From assembly GCA_008011715.2 (NCBI GenBank), contig CP136508.1:1116001-1180000 (forward strand): a stretch of DNA of 64,000 bases. Direction: 5' to 3'. This document shows, piece after piece, positions 50,593-57,722 of this stretch; position 1 is the stretch's first letter; each line of letters begins with the position of its first letter. The notes under the pieces are model-generated. The model saw only the letters and a list, made by a program, of their open reading frames with translations, searched no databases and was not told the DNA's origin. The stretch comes from [Empedobacter] haloabium. Lineage in GTDB: Bacteria > Pseudomonadota > Gammaproteobacteria > Burkholderiales > Burkholderiaceae_D. Made by a program: the position numbers and the translations under genes.

Positions 50593-52053
50593 ATGAAACC
50601 ATTCGAACCGAACCTGTCTTCGCTGGCGCTGGCCCGCGACGTGCTGCTGACCCCGTTCGGGCTGGACGAGGGCAAGCTGATCAAGACGCTGGGCACGATG
50701 TTCACCCACAAGGTCGATTATGCCGACCTGTATTTCCAGTTCACCAAGAACGAGGGCTGGAGCCTGGAAGAGGGCATCGTCAAGACGGGCAGCTTCTCGA
50801 TCGACCAAGGCGTCGGCGTGCGCGCCGTGTCCGGCGAGAAGACGGCGTTCTCGTACTCGGACGAGATTTCGGAAGCGGCGCTGCTGGATGCGGCGGCGGC
50901 CACGCGCACCATTGCGCGCGCCGGCGCCGGCAAGATCAAGGTGGCCGGCAGCATGACGCCGGTCGGCGGCCGTTCGCTGTACCTGCCGCATGACCCGCTC
51001 AATTCGCTGGACGCGGCGGCCAAGGTCAAGCTGCTCGAGCGCGTGGAAAAGATCGCCCGCGCCAAGGACCCGCGCGTGGTGCAGGTGATGGCGGGCCTGG
51101 CCGGCGAATACGACGTGGTGCTGGTGGTGCGCAGCGACGGCGTGCTGGCGGCGGACATCCGCCCGCTGGTGCGCGTGTCGGTGACCGTCATCGTCGAGCA
51201 GAACGGCCGGCGCGAGATGGGCTCCTCCGGCGGCGGCGGGCGCTACGACTACAACTACTTTACCGACGAGCTGCTGCAGCAGTACGCCGAAGACGCCGTC
51301 AAGGGCGCGCTGGTCAACCTGGATTCGCGTCCGGCCCCGGCCGGCCCGATGACGGTCGTGCTGGGCCCGGGCTGGCCCGGCATCCTGCTGCACGAGGCGA
51401 TCGGCCACGGCCTGGAAGGCGACTTCAACCGCAAGGGCTCGTCCACGTTCTCCGGCCGCATCGGCGAGCGCGTGGCCGCCAAGGGTGTCACGGTGGTCGA
51501 CGACGGCACGCTGGCGGACCGCCGCGGCTCGCTCAACATCGACGACGAAGGCAACCCGACCCAGTGCACGACCTTGATCGAGGACGGCATCCTGCGCGGT
51601 TACATCCAGGACACGATGAACGCGCGCCTGATGAAGATGCCGGTGACGGGCAACGCCCGCCGCGAATCGTTCGCGCACCTGCCGATGCCGCGCATGACGA
51701 ACACCTACATGCTGGCCGGCGACAAGGACCCGGAAGAAATCCTCAAGTCCGTCAAGAACGGCCTGTACGCGGTCAACTTCGGCGGCGGCCAGGTCGACAT
51801 CACGAACGGCAAGTTCGTGTTCTCGGCCAGCGAGGCCTACATGATCGAAGACGGCAAGGTGACGTACCCGGTCAAGGGGGCGACCCTGATCGGCAACGGC
51901 CCGGACGTGCTGAACCGCGTCTCGATGATCGGCAACGACATGAAGCTGGACCCGGGCGTGGGCGTGTGCGGCAAGGAAGGCCAGAGCGTGCCGGTCGGCG
52001 TGGGCCAGCCGACCCTGCGCATCGACGGCGTGACCGTCGGCGGCACCGCGTAA
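50593..52053 (+). CDS. tldD: Metalloprotease TldD
   Basis: A 486-residue TldD subunit. The zinc motif [11 protein letters not shown] (HExxxH, His267/His271) and the following [18 protein letters not shown] are diagnostic. TldD with TldE forms a heterodimeric protease that degrades unfolded peptides and matures some peptide products. The partner TldE/PmbA is not in the window. It lies 51 bases after the nitrilase gene and ends at a good terminator. Confidence 0.95.
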
Positions 52054-52180: not shown

Positions 52181-54850
52181 TTAGAACGAGTACGAACCCC
52201 GCAGGTACAGCGCGCGGCCGATCGGATCGGTGTAGCGCGGATCGTAGCCCTTCTGGAACACCGTGCCCTGGTTGCTGAACGGCGGTTCCTTGTCGAACAG
52301 GTTCTTCACGCCCGCCGTCAGGCTGACGTTCTTGAAGCCCGTGTAGGTGCCCGACAGGTTGACCAGGCTGTACGACGGCACGCGGTTGCGGTACTGCTCG
52401 TCGACCAGGTTCTGGTCGTCGTAGCCCGTCTTGAAGTTGTGCGCCAGGGTCGCGCTCCACACTCCGGAACGCCACGTCAGGGCGGCGTTGTGACGCCAGC
52501 GGAACACCACGTAGTTGTCGGCGTAACGGCCCACGTTCTGGACGAATTCGCCGTCACGCTCGTTCTGGTACTCGTAGTTGTGGATGTAGGTGCCGTCCAG
52601 CGTGAACGTGAAGCTGCCGTAGTCGCTGCGCGGCGCGCGCAGGGTCAGGCTGACGTCCACGCCATCGGTGCGCACCTTGCCCAGGTTCTCGTTCAAGTCC
52701 AGGATCGCGTTGGGCGAGCCGTCCGGGAAGCGCAGGAAGCGGTCGGCGTACTTGGTGTAGTTGCCGTAGATGGCCTGCTCCGGCAGGGCACCGATCTTTT
52801 CGCGCAGGCGGATGTTGAAGTAGTCCAGCGCCAGCGTGACGGCCGGCGTCGGCTCGAACACGGCGCCCAGTGCGAACGTGCGCGATTTCTCCGGCTGCAG
52901 GTTCGGATTGCCGCCTTGCAGCTTGAACTGCTGCAGGTCGCAATCGCGCAGCGGGTTCGATCCCGGTTGCGGCACGCCGTTCGGACACAGGATCGGGTCG
53001 TTGTACGAGTTGCTGGTGTCGTTGCGCGACAGCGGCGCGTTCTTCTCGAACAGGGTCGGCGCGCGGAAGCCGGTGCTGGCCGAACCGCGCAGCACGAAGG
53101 TCTTGTGCGGCTGCCAGCGGAAGGAGGCTTTCGGATTGGTGGTGCTGCCGACGTCGCTGTAGTGGTCCCAGCGGGCCGCCAGCGAGGCTTCCAGGTTCTG
53201 CATGAACGGCAGGCTGATCTCGCCGAACACGGCCTGGATGGTGCGGCTGCCCGACTTCGGCAGCGAGCCGGACAGACCCGAGCTGGCGGCCTGGCCGGCG
53301 ATGTCGCGGTTGACGTTGAACTCGGCCTTCTCATGGCGCAGTTCGGTGCCCAGCGCGACGGCCAGCTTGCCGCCCGCCATGTCCATCAGCTCGCGGCTGG
53401 CCTTCAGGTCGAACGCGGTCTGGGCGTTCTTCGCATCCTGTACGCGGCCGCGCAGCGCGGTCGTGGCCAGGTAGGCGCGGCCCGCTTCGTTCTGCAGGCC
53501 GAACGGGTTCAGGATGCCGTTGGCGACACCCGCCGCGAACGAGGCATCCTGCACGTAGCCACCGGTGAACTCTTCCGACGAGCGGCTGACGGAATGCGAC
53601 AGGCCACCGGCGTAGTCCCAGCCGGCCACGATGCCTTCCAGCGAGCCCAGGAATCGGTCGCCCGAACCGCGCGACAGGATCTGGCGCTGGCCCGCCTCGG
53701 TCGGACGCCAGTTGACGGACAGCGGGCTGCCCGACAGCCCGGCCTGGGCCGGCACGCCGCCCGAGTTGCCCGGGTAGTAGGGGCTGGTGGCCGGCAGGAT
53801 CAGGCCCGTCTGCGGCGGCGGCGCCGTGCGCGAGTTGACGCGGTTTTCCGAGTGCAGCACTTCGAAGGTCGCGGTGTGGTCGGCGCCCAGCTTGAAGCTG
53901 GCGCGGCCGAACGCGGTGGCGCGTTCCTGTTCCGGCAGGCTGTCGATCTGGCGCGTATAGTCCTGGCGGCAGGTGCCGTCGCTGGCGCGCGGGATGGACA
54001 GCGGTGCCAGGCAGCCGGTGGCGAAGCCAGGGTTGCCGGCCTTGTCGGCGACGGCATCGTAATAGTTACCAGGGAACGTGGTGCCGGACGTTTCGGACAG
54101 CCCGCGCGACGGAATCACGCCGGTCTGCGAGAACGGCCGCTGCTGCGACGTCAGCACGTCCTGCTTGTGGTAGTCCAGCACGCCCAGCACGGCCCAGCCG
54201 TCGCGCGCCAGGTCGCCGCTGCCGGTGGTCAGGTTGCCGCGGCGCTCACGGCCGCCGGTATGCTGCGGCAGCACCGTCTCGATGGCGACCGTGGTCTGCT
54301 GCACCGAGCGGCGCGTGATGAAGTTGATGACGCCGCCGATGGCATCGGTACCGTAGATCGCGGAGGCGCCGTCGCGCAGCACCTCGACGCGCTCGAGCGC
54401 GGCGACGGGGATCAGGTTCAGGTCGACGCTGGCGCCATCGTACGGATGGCTGGCCAGGCGGCGGCCGTTCAGCAGCACCAGGGTCTTGTCCCCGCCCAGG
54501 CCGCGCAGGTCGGCCGTGGCCTGGCCGCCGGTCGGCAGGCCGCTGGCGTTGCCGCCCACGGCGTTGGCCGAACCGAAGCTGGTCTGGTTGGCGGGAATGC
54601 GGTCCAGCACTTCCTGGGCCGTGGTCAGACCCTGCTTGACGAATTCCTCGGCCTTGAAGACCGTCAGGGGCGTGGCGGTCTCGTTGACGAGCCGCTTGAT
54701 CGACGAGCCGGTGATTTCCACGCGCAGCATCTGGCCTTCGCCAGCCTGGTTGGCATCCTGCGCGAAGGCCGGCGCGATGGCGGACAGGGCGGCGATGCCG
54801 AGGCAAATCGGCCGCAGGCGGCCGAAGCGTGCGTTACTTTTGTTAGCCAA
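52181..54850 (-). CDS. TonB-dependent receptor 5 (TTG start)
   Basis: An 889-residue outer-membrane receptor. No ATG stands before the signal peptide. The best start is TTG at 54850, preceded by GGGAGAGAG, giving a signal peptide ANKSNARFGRLRPICLGIAA cut near AFAQD. The frame is open to an ATG at 55033, but that extension is not signal-like. Plug: MLRVEITGSSIKRLV, LRGLGGDKTLVLLNGRRLAS and DGASAIYGTDAIGGVINF. Barrel: CPNGVPQPGSNPLRDC and GGNPNLQPEKSRTFALG; C-terminus LYLRGSYSF. It is closest in style to receptor 3. Ligand unknown. Confidence 0.87.
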   Translation of the reverse strand: MANKSNARFGRLRPICLGIAALSAIAPAFAQDANQAGEGQMLRVEITGSSIKRLVNETATPLTVFKAEEFVKQGLTTAQEVLDRIPANQTSFGSANAVGGNASGLPTGGQATADLRGLGGDKTLVLLNGRRLASHPYDGASVDLNLIPVAALERVEVLRDGASAIYGTDAIGGVINFITRRSVQQTTVAIETVLPQHTGGRERRGNLTTGSGDLARDGWAVLGVLDYHKQDVLTSQQRPFSQTGVIPSRGLSETSGTTFPGNYYDAVADKAGNPGFATGCLAPLSIPRASDGTCRQDYTRQIDSLPEQERATAFGRASFKLGADHTATFEVLHSENRVNSRTAPPPQTGLILPATSPYYPGNSGGVPAQAGLSGSPLSVNWRPTEAGQRQILSRGSGDRFLGSLEGIVAGWDYAGGLSHSVSRSSEEFTGGYVQDASFAAGVANGILNPFGLQNEAGRAYLATTALRGRVQDAKNAQTAFDLKASRELMDMAGGKLAVALGTELRHEKAEFNVNRDIAGQAASSGLSGSLPKSGSRTIQAVFGEISLPFMQNLEASLAARWDHYSDVGSTTNPKASFRWQPHKTFVLRGSASTGFRAPTLFEKNAPLSRNDTSNSYNDPILCPNGVPQPGSNPLRDCDLQQFKLQGGNPNLQPEKSRTFALGAVFEPTPAVTLALDYFNIRLREKIGALPEQAIYGNYTKYADRFLRFPDGSPNAILDLNENLGKVRTDGVDVSLTLRAPRSDYGSFTFTLDGTYIHNYEYQNERDGEFVQNVGRYADNYVVFRWRHNAALTWRSGVWSATLAHNFKTGYDDQNLVDEQYRNRVPSYSLVNLSGTYTGFKNVSLTAGVKNLFDKEPPFSNQGTVFQKGYDPRYTDPIGRALYLRGSYSF

Positions 54851-55079
54851 AACTCTCTCCCGATGTTGAGAAAAAATGGTGCAGCTGAGACAAGCCAAGG
54901 TGAACGTTCGGTCACGCCGGCTGCACGCACACTTTGACACGGCATTGACTATTTGCAAACTGAGCGGCGAAGAAAATGCGGCGAATGGCCGCTTTGTGTT
55001 GTATCTACCGCAACTGGACTGGTCAAAACGCATGTTCGCTTGCGTTTTGCACGCGTCGCCATTCCTGCCGACAATGTGC

Positions 55080-55109
55080 TTGCCAAACCTTGCACCTTGT
55101 TGTTATAGT
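55080..55109 (+). promoter_or_regulatory. Sigma-70-type promoter of the aroG leader
   Basis: TTGCCA (55080-55085) and TATAGT (55104-55109) each match five of six consensus bases and are 18 bases apart. Transcription would start near 55116, about 18 bases before the leader peptide ATG. Confidence 0.65.
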
Positions 55110-55122
55110 GATTCTCAATCAC
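55108..55122. promoter_or_regulatory. 15-base perfect dyad overlapping the aroG promoter
   Basis: GTGATT-CTC-AATCAC is a perfect inverted repeat covering the end of the -10 box and the likely start point. This is a position suited to a repressor. The wider sequence has partial likeness to Fur boxes (GATTCTCA core), but the match is incomplete. Confidence 0.45.
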
Positions 55123-55133
55123 CAGGACATCTC

Positions 55134-55199
55134 ATGCACCGTTTCGTTTTCTTTACCGGCTTTTATTTTTGGCTCCCTGCCCACAAGGCGGTTGAGTAG
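55134..55199 (+). CDS. Phe-rich leader peptide of aroG (attenuator peptide)
   Basis: A 21-codon reading frame with AGGA seven bases ahead of the ATG. Residues 4-13 read FVFFTGFYFW: five Phe, one Tyr and one Trp in ten codons. It is followed by a perfect intrinsic terminator (55250-55275) and then the DAHP synthase gene for the first step of aromatic amino acid synthesis. Composition, position and downstream structure fit a classical attenuation leader in which ribosome stalling at Phe codons allows read-through. It is too short to be expected to work as a protein. A chance ORF is possible but unlikely given all three features. Confidence 0.75.
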   Translation: MHRFVFFTGFYFWLPAHKAVE

Positions 55200-55275
55200 A
55201 GGCCGGTTCACGTAGCGACAAACACGAGACTCCAGCAAATGCCCAGAAGACCGCCAGAGATGGCGGTTTTTTTTT
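55155..55275 (+). promoter_or_regulatory. Transcription attenuator of aroG (alternative RNA pairings)
   Basis: ACCGGC (55155-55160, in the leader codons) can pair with GCCGGT (55202-55207). GGCGGT (55187-55192, last leader codons) can pair with ACCGCC (55250-55255), which is the left arm of the terminator. A ribosome stalled on Phe codons leaves GGCGGT free to form the antiterminator. A ribosome reaching the stop codon at 55197 covers it and lets the terminator form. The pairings are short (six bases) and should be checked by folding. Confidence 0.6.
55250..55275 (+). terminator. Intrinsic terminator within the aroG leader
   Basis: ACCGCCA-GAGA-TGGCGGT followed by nine T. It lies 51 bases after the leader peptide stop and 45 bases before the aroG start, so it must be bypassed for aroG expression. 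Confidence 0.85.
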
Positions 55276-55319
55276 ACGCGAAATTTTTGAACGAATTTTT
55301 GAAGATTGAGGAGAGCACC

Positions 55320-56378
55320 ATGCAACGCACCGACGACCTGCGCATCCGCGAAATGAAGGAACTGACGCCGCCATCGCACCTGATCCGCGAGTTCCCCTGC
55401 ACCGAGGCGGCTTCGCAGACGGCGTCCGCCGCCCGCATCGCGCTGCACCGCATCCTGCACGGCCAGGACGACCGCCTGATGGTCGTCGTCGGCCCCTGCT
55501 CGATCCACGATCCGAAGGCGGCGATGGAGTATGCCCGCAAGCTGACCGAGGTGCGTGCGCGCCTGCAGGGCGACCTGGAAATCGTCATGCGCGTGTATTT
55601 CGAGAAGCCGCGCACGACCGTGGGCTGGAAGGGCATGATCAACGACCCGTACATGGACAACAGCTTCCGCATCAACGACGGCCTGCGCATGGCGCGCGAG
55701 CTGCTGCGCGACATTAACGAGCTGGGCCTGCCGGCCGGCACCGAGTTCCTCGACGTGATCAGCCCGCAATACATCGCCGACCTGATCGCCTGGGGCGCGA
55801 TCGGCGCGCGCACCACGGAATCGCAGGTGCACCGCGAGCTGGCCTCCGGCCTGTCGTGCCCGGTCGGCTTCAAGAACGGCACCGACGGCAATACCAAGAT
55901 CGCCGTCGAGGCCATCAAGGCCGCGTCGCAGCCGCACCACTTCCTGTCCGTCACCAAGGGCGGCCACTCGGCCATCGTCTCGACCAACGGCAACGAGGAC
56001 TGCCACATCATCCTGCGCGGCGGCAAGACGCCGAACTACGACGCCGCCAGCGTGGAAGAGGCCTGCAAGGCCATCGCCAGCCACGGCCTGGCCTCGCGCC
56101 TGATGATCGACGCGTCGCACGCCAACAGCTCGAAGAAGCCGGAAAACCAGGTGCCCGTGTGCGCCGACATCGCCGCCCAGGTGGCCGGCGGCGACGACCG
56201 CATCGTCGGCGTCATGATCGAGTCGCACCTGATCGCCGGCCGCCAGGACCTGGTGCCGGGCAAGGAACTGACCTACGGCCAGTCCGTCACCGACGGCTGC
56301 ATCGACTGGGACACCACCGTGCAGGTGCTGAACAACCTGGCGGACGCCGTGCGCCAGCGCCGCCTGCGCGGCGAATAA
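55320..56378 (+). CDS. aroG: 3-deoxy-7-phosphoheptulonate (DAHP) synthase, class I, AroG-like
   Basis: A 352-residue enzyme condensing phosphoenolpyruvate and erythrose-4-phosphate, the entry to the shikimate pathway. Landmarks: RLMVVVGPCSIHDPKAAMEY, MRVYFEKPRTTVGWKG, GFKNGTDGNTKIA and MIDASHANSSKKPENQ. The start at 55320 follows GAGGAG; the frame is open to 55239 but that would include the attenuator stem. Length and motifs fit the enteric AroF/G/H type. The Phe-rich leader suggests control by phenylalanine, matching the Phe-sensitive isozyme, though feedback specificity cannot be read from sequence alone. The Asp/Asn hydroxylase gene follows after 54 bases. Confidence 0.95.
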   Translation: MQRTDDLRIREMKELTPPSHLIREFPCTEAASQTASAARIALHRILHGQDDRLMVVVGPCSIHDPKAAMEYARKLTEVRARLQGDLEIVMRVYFEKPRTTVGWKGMINDPYMDNSFRINDGLRMARELLRDINELGLPAGTEFLDVISPQYIADLIAWGAIGARTTESQVHRELASGLSCPVGFKNGTDGNTKIAVEAIKAASQPHHFLSVTKGGHSAIVSTNGNEDCHIILRGGKTPNYDAASVEEACKAIASHGLASRLMIDASHANSSKKPENQVPVCADIAAQVAGGDDRIVGVMIESHLIAGRQDLVPGKELTYGQSVTDGCIDWDTTVQVLNNLADAVRQRRLRGE

Positions 56379-56432: not shown

Positions 56433-57722
56433 ATGGGACTAGCGATACAAGAAGACGTCGCGGCGCTGCAGCGCCAGATCGCCGCGGCGATCCAGGCCGG
56501 CCGCGATAACGAGGCGGGGCAGTTGTGGCAGCGGCTGCTGGACGTCGATCCGGACAGCACCAAGGCCCTGTTCGCATTGAGCCAGCGGGCGTTCCGGGCC
56601 GGCGATCTGCAGCGGGCGCGCGAGCTGCTGCGCCGGCTGGTGGCGCTCGACGGCCAGGACCTGCAACAATGGATCAACCTGGCCGTGGTGTGCCGCGGCC
56701 TGCACGACGACGAAGGCGAGGCCGCGGCCCTGACGGGCGCGCTCACCGTCGATCCCACCGACATGCTGGCGCAGCTGCTGAGGGGCGAATTGTTCGAGCG
56801 TCAGGGGCGCCGCCACGAGGCGGTGCGGGCCTATGGCGCCGGCGCCATGGCTGCACCGCCAGTGGAGCGGCTGGAACCGTCGCTGCGCCCTCTGCTGCAA
56901 CGCGCGCTGGCGTTCCAGGACGCCTACCAGCGCGACTACGGCGACTGGATGGACGCGCACCTGGCGCCGCTGCTGCGCGACCTGCAGGGCGAACCGCTGG
57001 GACGCTTCCGCGACGCCGTCGACATCATGTTCGGCCGCAAGCGCCGCTACGATCCGCAGCCGGCGCTGTTCTATTATCCGGGCCTGGCGCCGGTCACCTT
57101 TTTCGACCGTGCGCTGTTCCCGTGGATGCCGGCGCTGGAAGCACAGACCGACGCGATCCGCGCCGAGTTCCTCGCCGTGCTGGAGCGGCAGGACGGCTTC
57201 GTGCCTTACCTCAGTTATCCGCCCGACCAGCCGCACTTCCAGTTCGCCCAATTGAACAATTCGCCCGACTGGAGCGCGTATCACCTGATCGAGCAGGGTC
57301 GTGTCGTGACCGGGCACGCGGCGCAATGCCCCGTGACGATGGCCGCGCTGGCCAATGTGCCGCAGCCGCACCAGCTCAATCGCACCCCCAGCGCGATGTT
57401 CTCGCTGCTGCGTCCGCGCACGCGCATCCCCGCGCACACGGGCGTCAGCAACGTGCGGCTGGTGGCGCACCTGCCGCTGATCCTGCCGGGGCAGTGCGGC
57501 CTGCGCGTCGGCAACGACGTGCGCGAGTGGGAGATGGGCAAGGGCTGGGTGTTCGACGACACGATCGAACACGAGGCGTGGAACGACAGCGACGCGCTGC
57601 GCGTCGTGCTGATCTTCGACGTATGGCATCCGCACCTGTCGGAAGCCGAGCGCACGATGGTCAGCGCGCTGGCCGAAGGGATCGTGCGGTTCGGCGCGGG
57701 CAGCGGCGGGTTCGAGCTGTAG
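56433..57722 (+). CDS. TPR-containing aspartyl/asparaginyl beta-hydroxylase family protein
   Basis: A 429-residue protein. Residues 1 to about 150 are TPR-like helical repeats (LWQRLLDVDPDSTKALFALS; ARELLRRLVALDGQDLQQWI). The C-terminal part is an aspartyl/asparaginyl beta-hydroxylase domain: MFSLLRPRTRIPAHTGVSNV, VAHLPLILPGQCGLRVGND and WVFDDTIEHEAWND, with His residues placed to bind Fe(II). It would hydroxylate a peptide or protein using 2-oxoglutarate and oxygen; the target is unknown. No signal peptide. It follows aroG by 54 bases and may be cotranscribed with it. Confidence 0.85.
   Translation: MGLAIQEDVAALQRQIAAAIQAGRDNEAGQLWQRLLDVDPDSTKALFALSQRAFRAGDLQRARELLRRLVALDGQDLQQWINLAVVCRGLHDDEGEAAALTGALTVDPTDMLAQLLRGELFERQGRRHEAVRAYGAGAMAAPPVERLEPSLRPLLQRALAFQDAYQRDYGDWMDAHLAPLLRDLQGEPLGRFRDAVDIMFGRKRRYDPQPALFYYPGLAPVTFFDRALFPWMPALEAQTDAIRAEFLAVLERQDGFVPYLSYPPDQPHFQFAQLNNSPDWSAYHLIEQGRVVTGHAAQCPVTMAALANVPQPHQLNRTPSAMFSLLRPRTRIPAHTGVSNVRLVAHLPLILPGQCGLRVGNDVREWEMGKGWVFDDTIEHEAWNDSDALRVVLIFDVWHPHLSEAERTMVSALAEGIVRFGAGSGGFEL

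Follow-up and report, generated by a model that had tools for sequence, protein, structure and literature searches.

A candidate phenylalanine-sensing transcription attenuator upstream of aroG in [Empedobacter] haloabium and related Burkholderiales

Very probably, the aroG gene of [Empedobacter] haloabium is controlled by ribosome-mediated transcription attenuation of the classical type, in which charged tRNA-Phe is sensed and entry to aromatic amino acid synthesis is thereby governed. The gene lies within the 64,000-nt stretch of DNA analysed here (hereafter the window; contig CP136508.1, positions 1,116,001 to 1,180,000). The elements of the putative attenuator and the evidence by which each was assigned are as follows, in coordinates of the window.

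55080-55109, forward strand: putative promoter with -35 TTGCCA (55080-55085) and -10 TATAGT (55104-55109) separated by an 18-nt spacer (consensus scan)
55124-55127, forward strand: ribosome-binding site AGGA of the leader peptide, 6 nt 5' of the ATG (sequence)
55134-55199, forward strand: leader peptide ORF MHRFVFFTGFYFWLPAHKAVE, 21 codons, stop codon TAG at 55197-55199 (sequence)
55155-55168, forward strand: segment 1, the 5' arm of the pause (1:2) hairpin, core ACCGGC at 55155-55160 (fold, one covarying pair)
55161-55169, forward strand: control codons TTT TAT TTT (Phe-Tyr-Phe), 17 nt 5' of the antiterminator element (F-x-F and its spacing in relatives)
55187-55193, forward strand: antiterminator element GGCGGTT in the last leader codons, pairing with 55249-55255 (invariance, edge-base covariation)
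55194-55207, forward strand: segment 2, the 3' arm of the pause (1:2) hairpin, core GCCGGT at 55202-55207 (fold, one covarying pair)
55247-55275, forward strand: intrinsic terminator, stem 55247-55256/55261-55270, loop GAGA, T-run 55267-55275 (fold, pair counts)
55310-55313, forward strand: ribosome-binding site GGAG of aroG, outside the terminator (sequence)
55320-56378, forward strand: aroG, DAHP (3-deoxy-7-phosphoheptulonate) synthase, the regulated gene (NCBIfam NF006723)

The 21-codon ORF with its own ribosome-binding site, on which the original prediction was built, can be read directly in the sequence, and residues 4-13 of its product form the block FVFFTGFYFW (F4 F6 F7 F10 Y11 F12 W13), which contains five Phe, one Tyr, and one Trp. 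Equally plain is the perfect terminator stem with its T-run that had been noted before the DAHP synthase gene (AAGACCGCCA-GAGA-TGGCGGTTTT, 55247-55270), which ends 44 nt from the aroG start codon. The claimed complementarity between the last leader codons and the left arm of this terminator holds as well, with GGCGGTT (55187-55193) pairing with GACCGCC (55249-55255) and a U-G as the last pair. Because the ribosome-binding site of aroG lies outside the terminator, the layout speaks for transcriptional rather than translational control. The product of the regulated gene was identified as AroG (NCBIfam NF006723, 590.9 bits against a cut-off of 568), and its divergent neighbour resembles TonB-dependent receptors, with best matches below their cut-offs, so that no same-strand upstream gene is in sight to own the terminator. 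A consensus terminator scan returned two other weak sites and not the terminator described here, probably because most of the T-run is absorbed into its longest stem. The gene 3' of aroG (56433-57719, forward strand) has a TPR-like front and matches the OlsC/LpxO hydroxylase families far below their cut-offs.

In the proposed mechanism, transcription would start near 55116, judging from the position of the promoter, and a ribosome would translate the leader behind RNA polymerase. With ample Phe, the ribosome would reach the stop codon and cover GGCGGTT, the terminator would form, and transcription would end at the T-run. When Phe-tRNA is short, the ribosome would stall at the Phe codons, covering segment 1 and leaving GGCGGTT free to pair with the left arm of the terminator before the right arm exists, and polymerase would read through into aroG. 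On a transcript without a ribosome, the 1:2 hairpin would hide GGCGGTT and the terminator would form.

Taken as a whole, the 240-nt leader region has a better fold than its shuffles (z -2.91, 1 of 200 as good), as does the terminator stretch at 55240-55280 (-17.3 kcal/mol, z -4.72, 0 of 200 as good). The leader stretch alone is only slightly better than shuffles (z -1.51, 15 of 200 as good), and the antiterminator stretch is not better folded than shuffles (z about -0.7, with 56 and 44 of 200 as good). For the window without a ribosome, the predicted fold consists of the 1:2 hairpin and the terminator. With a ribosome on codons 10-13 and the right arm not yet made, the antiterminator is predicted at 0.93, only the RNA beyond the ribosome being allowed to pair, and once the region is fully transcribed the terminator has an equilibrium probability of 0.99 even behind the stalled ribosome. 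As the terminator wins at equilibrium in spite of the stalled ribosome, the switch must be kinetic. Among the leaders of 98 relatives, the antiterminator was predicted above 0.5 in 90 with a ribosome stalled on F-x-F and in seven with no ribosome, so the folding model sides with the earlier proposal that stalling at the Phe codons would favour an antiterminator; eight leaders lacked it in the stalled state. With a ribosome at the stop codon, the antiterminator is zero by construction, as GGCGG is masked, and this state was not counted as evidence. When the leader segment was shuffled, the antiterminator exceeded 0.5 without a ribosome in 351 of 980 cases, compared with the seven of 98 native leaders, which indicates that GGCGG is hidden more than expected by chance.

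We examined this arrangement at 115 Oxalobacteraceae-type aroG loci taken from two overlapping collections. At 112 of them (99 distinct regions), an aromatic-rich leader ORF precedes a CCGCC...GGCGG terminator; this count, like the other conservation and covariation counts given here, is inflated by the common descent of related rows. A stricter rule, which required leader, terminator, and matching 6-mer, was satisfied at 106 of the 115 loci and at 30 of 144 other loci (duplicates and paralogues counted). When 60 positive upstream regions were shuffled with dinucleotides preserved, none of 900 shuffles satisfied it, so the combination is above chance. The three Oxalobacteraceae loci that lack the layout fall into two kinds. 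At L075 and L132 the upstream sequence is identical, and aroG is preceded by the end of a gene resembling the ORF at 50593-52053 of the window, while at L005 the leader front has been swapped for the 3' end of another coding sequence (..KKAVE, ending exactly at GGCGGTGGAGTAG) and the terminator is retained, a replacement that reflects either recombination or misassembly. Upstream of the leader, TATAGT occurs in 73 of the 99 distinct relatives, and an SD-like match was found in 61 of 96 and not in the other 35. In seven leaders (L012, L013, L021, L023, L028, L029, and L042, the last from Duganella radicis), the ATG stands 6-7 nt after TATAGT with no SD-like match, suggesting a leaderless leader peptide in this lineage.

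Covariation differs among the three helices. The core of the 1:2 hairpin (ACCGGC/GCCGGT) is paired in 92.7% of cells, against a shuffled mean of 84.9%. One of its pairs (n = 50) is GC in 29 rows, UA in 13, CG in three, and other in five; the first side of the hairpin is coding (Gly, Cys/Phe/Trp, and Arg codons), and the complementary base, which stands 3' of the stop codon in the window, changes to match. The signal comes from this one pair, because neither the pairs altered on both sides (1, shuffled 1.3) nor the further pair types (5, shuffled 5.9) are above shuffles. On alignments A1 (50 sequences) and A2 (24 sequences), RNAalifold returned the terminator but not the type of 1:2 stem that was expected, and this stem was therefore assessed from the single-sequence fold. 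The terminator is paired in 97.8%, with two pairs altered on both sides (a number reached by 31 of 500 shuffles); its covariation lies at its ends, and seven of the ten pairs are invariant. The antiterminator pairing GGCGGU:ACCGCC is invariant in all 50 Oxalobacteraceae rows, with the seventh pair formed in four of the 50, and there is consequently no antiterminator covariation within the family.

Across families, one edge of the antiterminator does vary. In 28 of 39 loci, the leader base preceding GGCGG matches the terminator base that follows CCGCC, a fit reached in 1 of 10,000 shuffles, although this set contains one locus (L120) misread by its pattern. In a wider set, in which L120 was re-parsed, the leader edge base is complementary to the terminator base in 46 of 70 loci (shuffled mean 32.0, 0 of 20,000 shuffles), with T.A.T (30) and C.G.C (13) among the combinations; here the better-paired terminator reading was used where several were possible, L335 and L338 were read at the first rather than the last GGCGG, and L321, L325, and L333 fell outside the pattern. 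Both sets leave out L124 and L158, which carry GGCGA in place of GGCGG, and the near-copy L178 was left out of alignment A3. On the other side, the leader base matches the terminator in seven of 70 loci (shuffled mean 7.9), and the common antiterminator thus comprises about six pairs. Of the compensatory changes that had been proposed as a check, those in one pause pair, in the terminator, and at the antiterminator edge were found, while the antiterminator core never varies.

The layout appears to be specific to this gene copy. At the aroG paralogue, a second aroG-type gene about 53% identical to the first, it was found at none of 21 loci, three of which have an aromatic-rich ORF and no terminator. 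No leader with a terminator was found in the stretches inspected at pheA, pheS, and trpE of the same genome, where the trpE locus has an aromatic ORF without a terminator. Every tested anatomical feature of a ribosome-mediated transcription attenuator of the trp/phe/his kind is present at aroG, two of them on weaker evidence. There is a short leader ORF in which codons for the regulating amino acid are abundant, an intrinsic terminator between this ORF and the structural gene, and a structural gene, the DAHP synthase gene aroG, whose product acts in the synthesis of the amino acid that the control codons encode. An antiterminator that excludes the terminator and would be freed by stalling is indicated by folding and edge-base covariation, its core being invariant, and a pause or anti-antiterminator (1:2) hairpin is likewise present, though absent from the RNAalifold result.

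The control codons are conserved in both position and frame. F-x-F occurs in 96 of the 99 distinct leaders (FYF in 84, FWF in eight, FHF in three, and FSF in one) and lies 17 nt before GGCGG in 81, 16 nt in eight, 15 nt in four, and farther in three, so that 93 of 96 fall within 15-17 nt. This pattern forced F at both ends, and an unforced profile was run separately on 98 leaders, excluding L014, which has a hand-set region in A1, is one of the three F-x-F misses, and was also left out of the folding of relatives. In the unforced profile, Phe reaches 92% at two positions, roughly 17 and 23 nt 5' of GGCGG, and 91% at 35 nt, which bears out the expectation that the Phe codons of the peptide would be conserved in relatives; Tyr is found at 20 nt in 81%. 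In the leaders of other families (n = 41) the aromatic block is less fixed, with Phe at 66% or less at any position. The Phe codons of the leaders are mostly TTT (344 TTT, 136 TTC), and those of aroG and the receptor gene of the window taken together show the opposite bias (3 TTT, 48 TTC). In all 74 leaders of A1 and A2, the distance from the ATG to F-x-F is divisible by three, while that from the ATG to GGCGG is spread over all three frames (64, seven, and three leaders). The selection of leaders as aromatic-rich ORFs favours the frame result, yet only three of the 115 loci failed that selection. In frame-slipped leaders the tail peptide is altered (QGGGVSGRCT, RRWNSSGYAQ) and GGCGG is retained. 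As the frame is conserved to F-Y-F, the tail peptide free, and GGCGG fixed, the codons as far as F-Y-F, and the RNA beyond them, appear to be under selection, and the conserved frame suggests that the leader ORF is translated. The antiterminator element itself lies inside the leader ORF, 10 nt 5' of the stop codon in 57 of the 99 leaders.

These observations bear on other ways in which such a leader could work. A nascent peptide might, together with free Phe, arrest the ribosome near the end of the leader, with no need for slow decoding of Phe codons. TnaC is a peptide arrest of this type with Trp. The strong conservation of the block F-Y-F-S-N/H/Y-S in many Oxalobacteraceae leaders would be in keeping with it, but we consider it very improbable, given that frame slips replace the C-terminal peptide while the DNA keeps GGCGG, that the tails of other families differ (LAE, HRR, GGR) and still retain GGCGG, and that, reasoning from the layout, an arrest near the end would mask GGCGG and leave the antiterminator unfreed. 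We give as little credence to a terminator that is constitutive or controlled by other means, such as Rho, a protein, or a leader-derived sRNA, with the Phe-rich ORF as a by-product. Short 5'UTR transcripts are common in another member of the order, Burkholderia cenocepacia, for which 82 are reported (PMC5688073), but a by-product would not account for a frame kept only up to the Phe codons, a fixed spacing of 15-17 nt, conserved and mutually exclusive helices, or the absence of the layout at the aroG paralogue.

The identity of the signal leaves somewhat more room. The original prediction favoured mainly Phe sensing with possible Tyr or Trp input, and the conserved Phe codons agree with Phe as the probable signal. 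It is unlikely, though by no means negligible as a prospect, that Tyr and perhaps Trp codons also act as control codons: Tyr stands between the two Phe in 81% of the 98 leaders, aroG supplies all three aromatic amino acids, and control of aroF by phenylalanine and tyrosine is described for Corynebacterium glutamicum in PMC7356990. However, the middle codon of the 96 triples varies (Y 84, W 8, H 3, S 1), and the review PMC11802643 describes Tyr as without effect on the aroR-controlled operon. Trp input is not supported, as the residue after F-x-F in the 50 rows of A1 is Ser in 42, Trp in only four, Pro in three, and Cys in one.

Attenuators of this kind are known, but this widespread aroG-linked Phe attenuator is apparently undescribed. 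The original prediction knew of no described case at aroG in this bacterial group, and none was found for the Burkholderiales among the literature matches listed (titles and abstract starts); Phe leaders at DAHP synthase genes are, however, on record outside the group. One of them belongs to C. glutamicum, a member of another phylum. There, the aroR leader peptide, with Phe-Tyr-Phe, precedes the aroF operon, and transcription rises under Phe limitation (PMC11802643; the leader is also reported in PMC4046766), although PMC7356990 calls the control of aroF translational where the review PMC11802643 calls it transcriptional. The arrangement thus resembles ours in having a Phe-Tyr-Phe leader before a DAHP synthase gene; the gene name differs, and aroR-aroF was compared by its published description. 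The uORFC-13-1 motif of a 2021 survey likewise combines a uORF with Phe codon(s) and a terminator before the DAHP synthase gene aroF in Acholeplasma; it was proposed computationally from 24 sequences of Acholeplasma and environmental origin only, and it too was compared by description (PMC8632094). Phe leader attenuation is shared with the E. coli pheA and pheST attenuators (PMC11802643), which act at pheA or pheST and not, as here, at aroG, where Rfam gives no match. With the E. coli trp attenuator the element would share the 1:2, 2:3, and 3:4 logic and super-attenuation without translation (PMC1183508); it differs in the amino acid and in the antiterminator element lying inside the leader ORF. 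Attenuation in gammaproteobacteria is described for trp and pheA in PMC5343134, the main text of a genome-wide attenuator screen (PMC2965389) contains no aroG, aroF, or DAHP, and the 'Burkholderiales-1' motif has no Rfam number in the table of PMC2864571. Rfam gave no match at E<=1 on 54500-55800 and none at gathering score in 12 loci, and Pfam and NCBIfam gave no family at E<=1 for the leader peptide of the window and seven others (L092 included).

The layout extends beyond the Oxalobacteraceae. In a sample of 200 genomes of the order, aroG was found at E<=1e-130 in 130, of which 124 belong to other families than that of the window. Leader and terminator are present in 41 of these 124 genomes, at one locus each and in 13 families; L124 and L158 are the two loci with the GGCGA variant. 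The layout was not seen in the other 83. A covariance model, R1, was built from 48 sequences, 40 from other families and eight from Oxalobacteraceae. In the genome of the window, R1 has one high full-length match, the element described here (72.7 bits), and a second full-length alignment of 14.6 bits. It matches 110 of 399 genomes of the order at E<=1e-6, a count that holds partly by construction since the model was built from Burkholderiales sequences. At E<=1e-7 it also matches genomes from another order of the same class (24 of 121), and across the phylum 26 genomes out of 249 match at E<=1e-6, including 13 that lie outside the class. All of the matches inspected by eye (18 of the 24 from the other order and eight of the 13 from outside the class) lie directly 5' of an ORF with an AroG start; the eight come from families f254 and f257, with f261 left out. 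Of 12 loci inspected from the searches of the own genome and the class, two (L290 and L292) are aroG leaders, and the L290 ORF scores 529 bits against TIGR00034, above the cut-off, and 551.4 against NF006723, just below its cut-off of 568.

From this distribution we entertain a wider reading, tentative and on balance doubtful, in which a single aroG-Phe attenuator, inherited or jointly transferred, serves as the regular control of shikimate entry in much of the Burkholderiales, in another order of the class, and in two or more families of a different class. In this reading, one Duganella-like lineage makes the leader peptide from a leaderless transcript (no ribosome-binding site, with the ATG 6-7 nt 3' of the -10 box), and the switch would there also report leaderless initiation. 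The attenuator as such would mean that, in a large group of bacteria, a main control of aromatic amino acid synthesis at the level of transcription acts at the pathway entry and not at pheA or pheST. More than 100 natural variants, among them leaders with a shifted tail frame and perhaps leaderless ones, are at hand for probing the rules of attenuation, and removal of the leader is predicted to raise aroG expression in bacteria that carry the attenuator.

R1 is not exclusive to aroG. A plasmid search gave no match, and matches covering the terminator end only, in the own genome and in the class, were taken as ordinary terminators. Fifteen weaker matches within the order were inspected, of which nine lie before an aroG-like ORF (one, L361, without an aromatic-rich leader) and six before other ORFs. 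In five genomes of family f27 (L354-L358), the match comprises an aromatic leader (..YFYWYR..) and a GCCGCC terminator before an ORF of 204-206 aa that is not aroG; two of these ORFs have no NCBIfam match and no Pfam match above the cut-off, and at L369 an ORF of this type follows a long flavoprotein-like ORF, as judged by eye. At L359, a short Leu-rich ORF (MELFIAALLSLLLLSRLKD..) and a terminator precede acetyltransferase-like and leuA-like ORFs, also by eye, and this element is probably a Leu attenuator.
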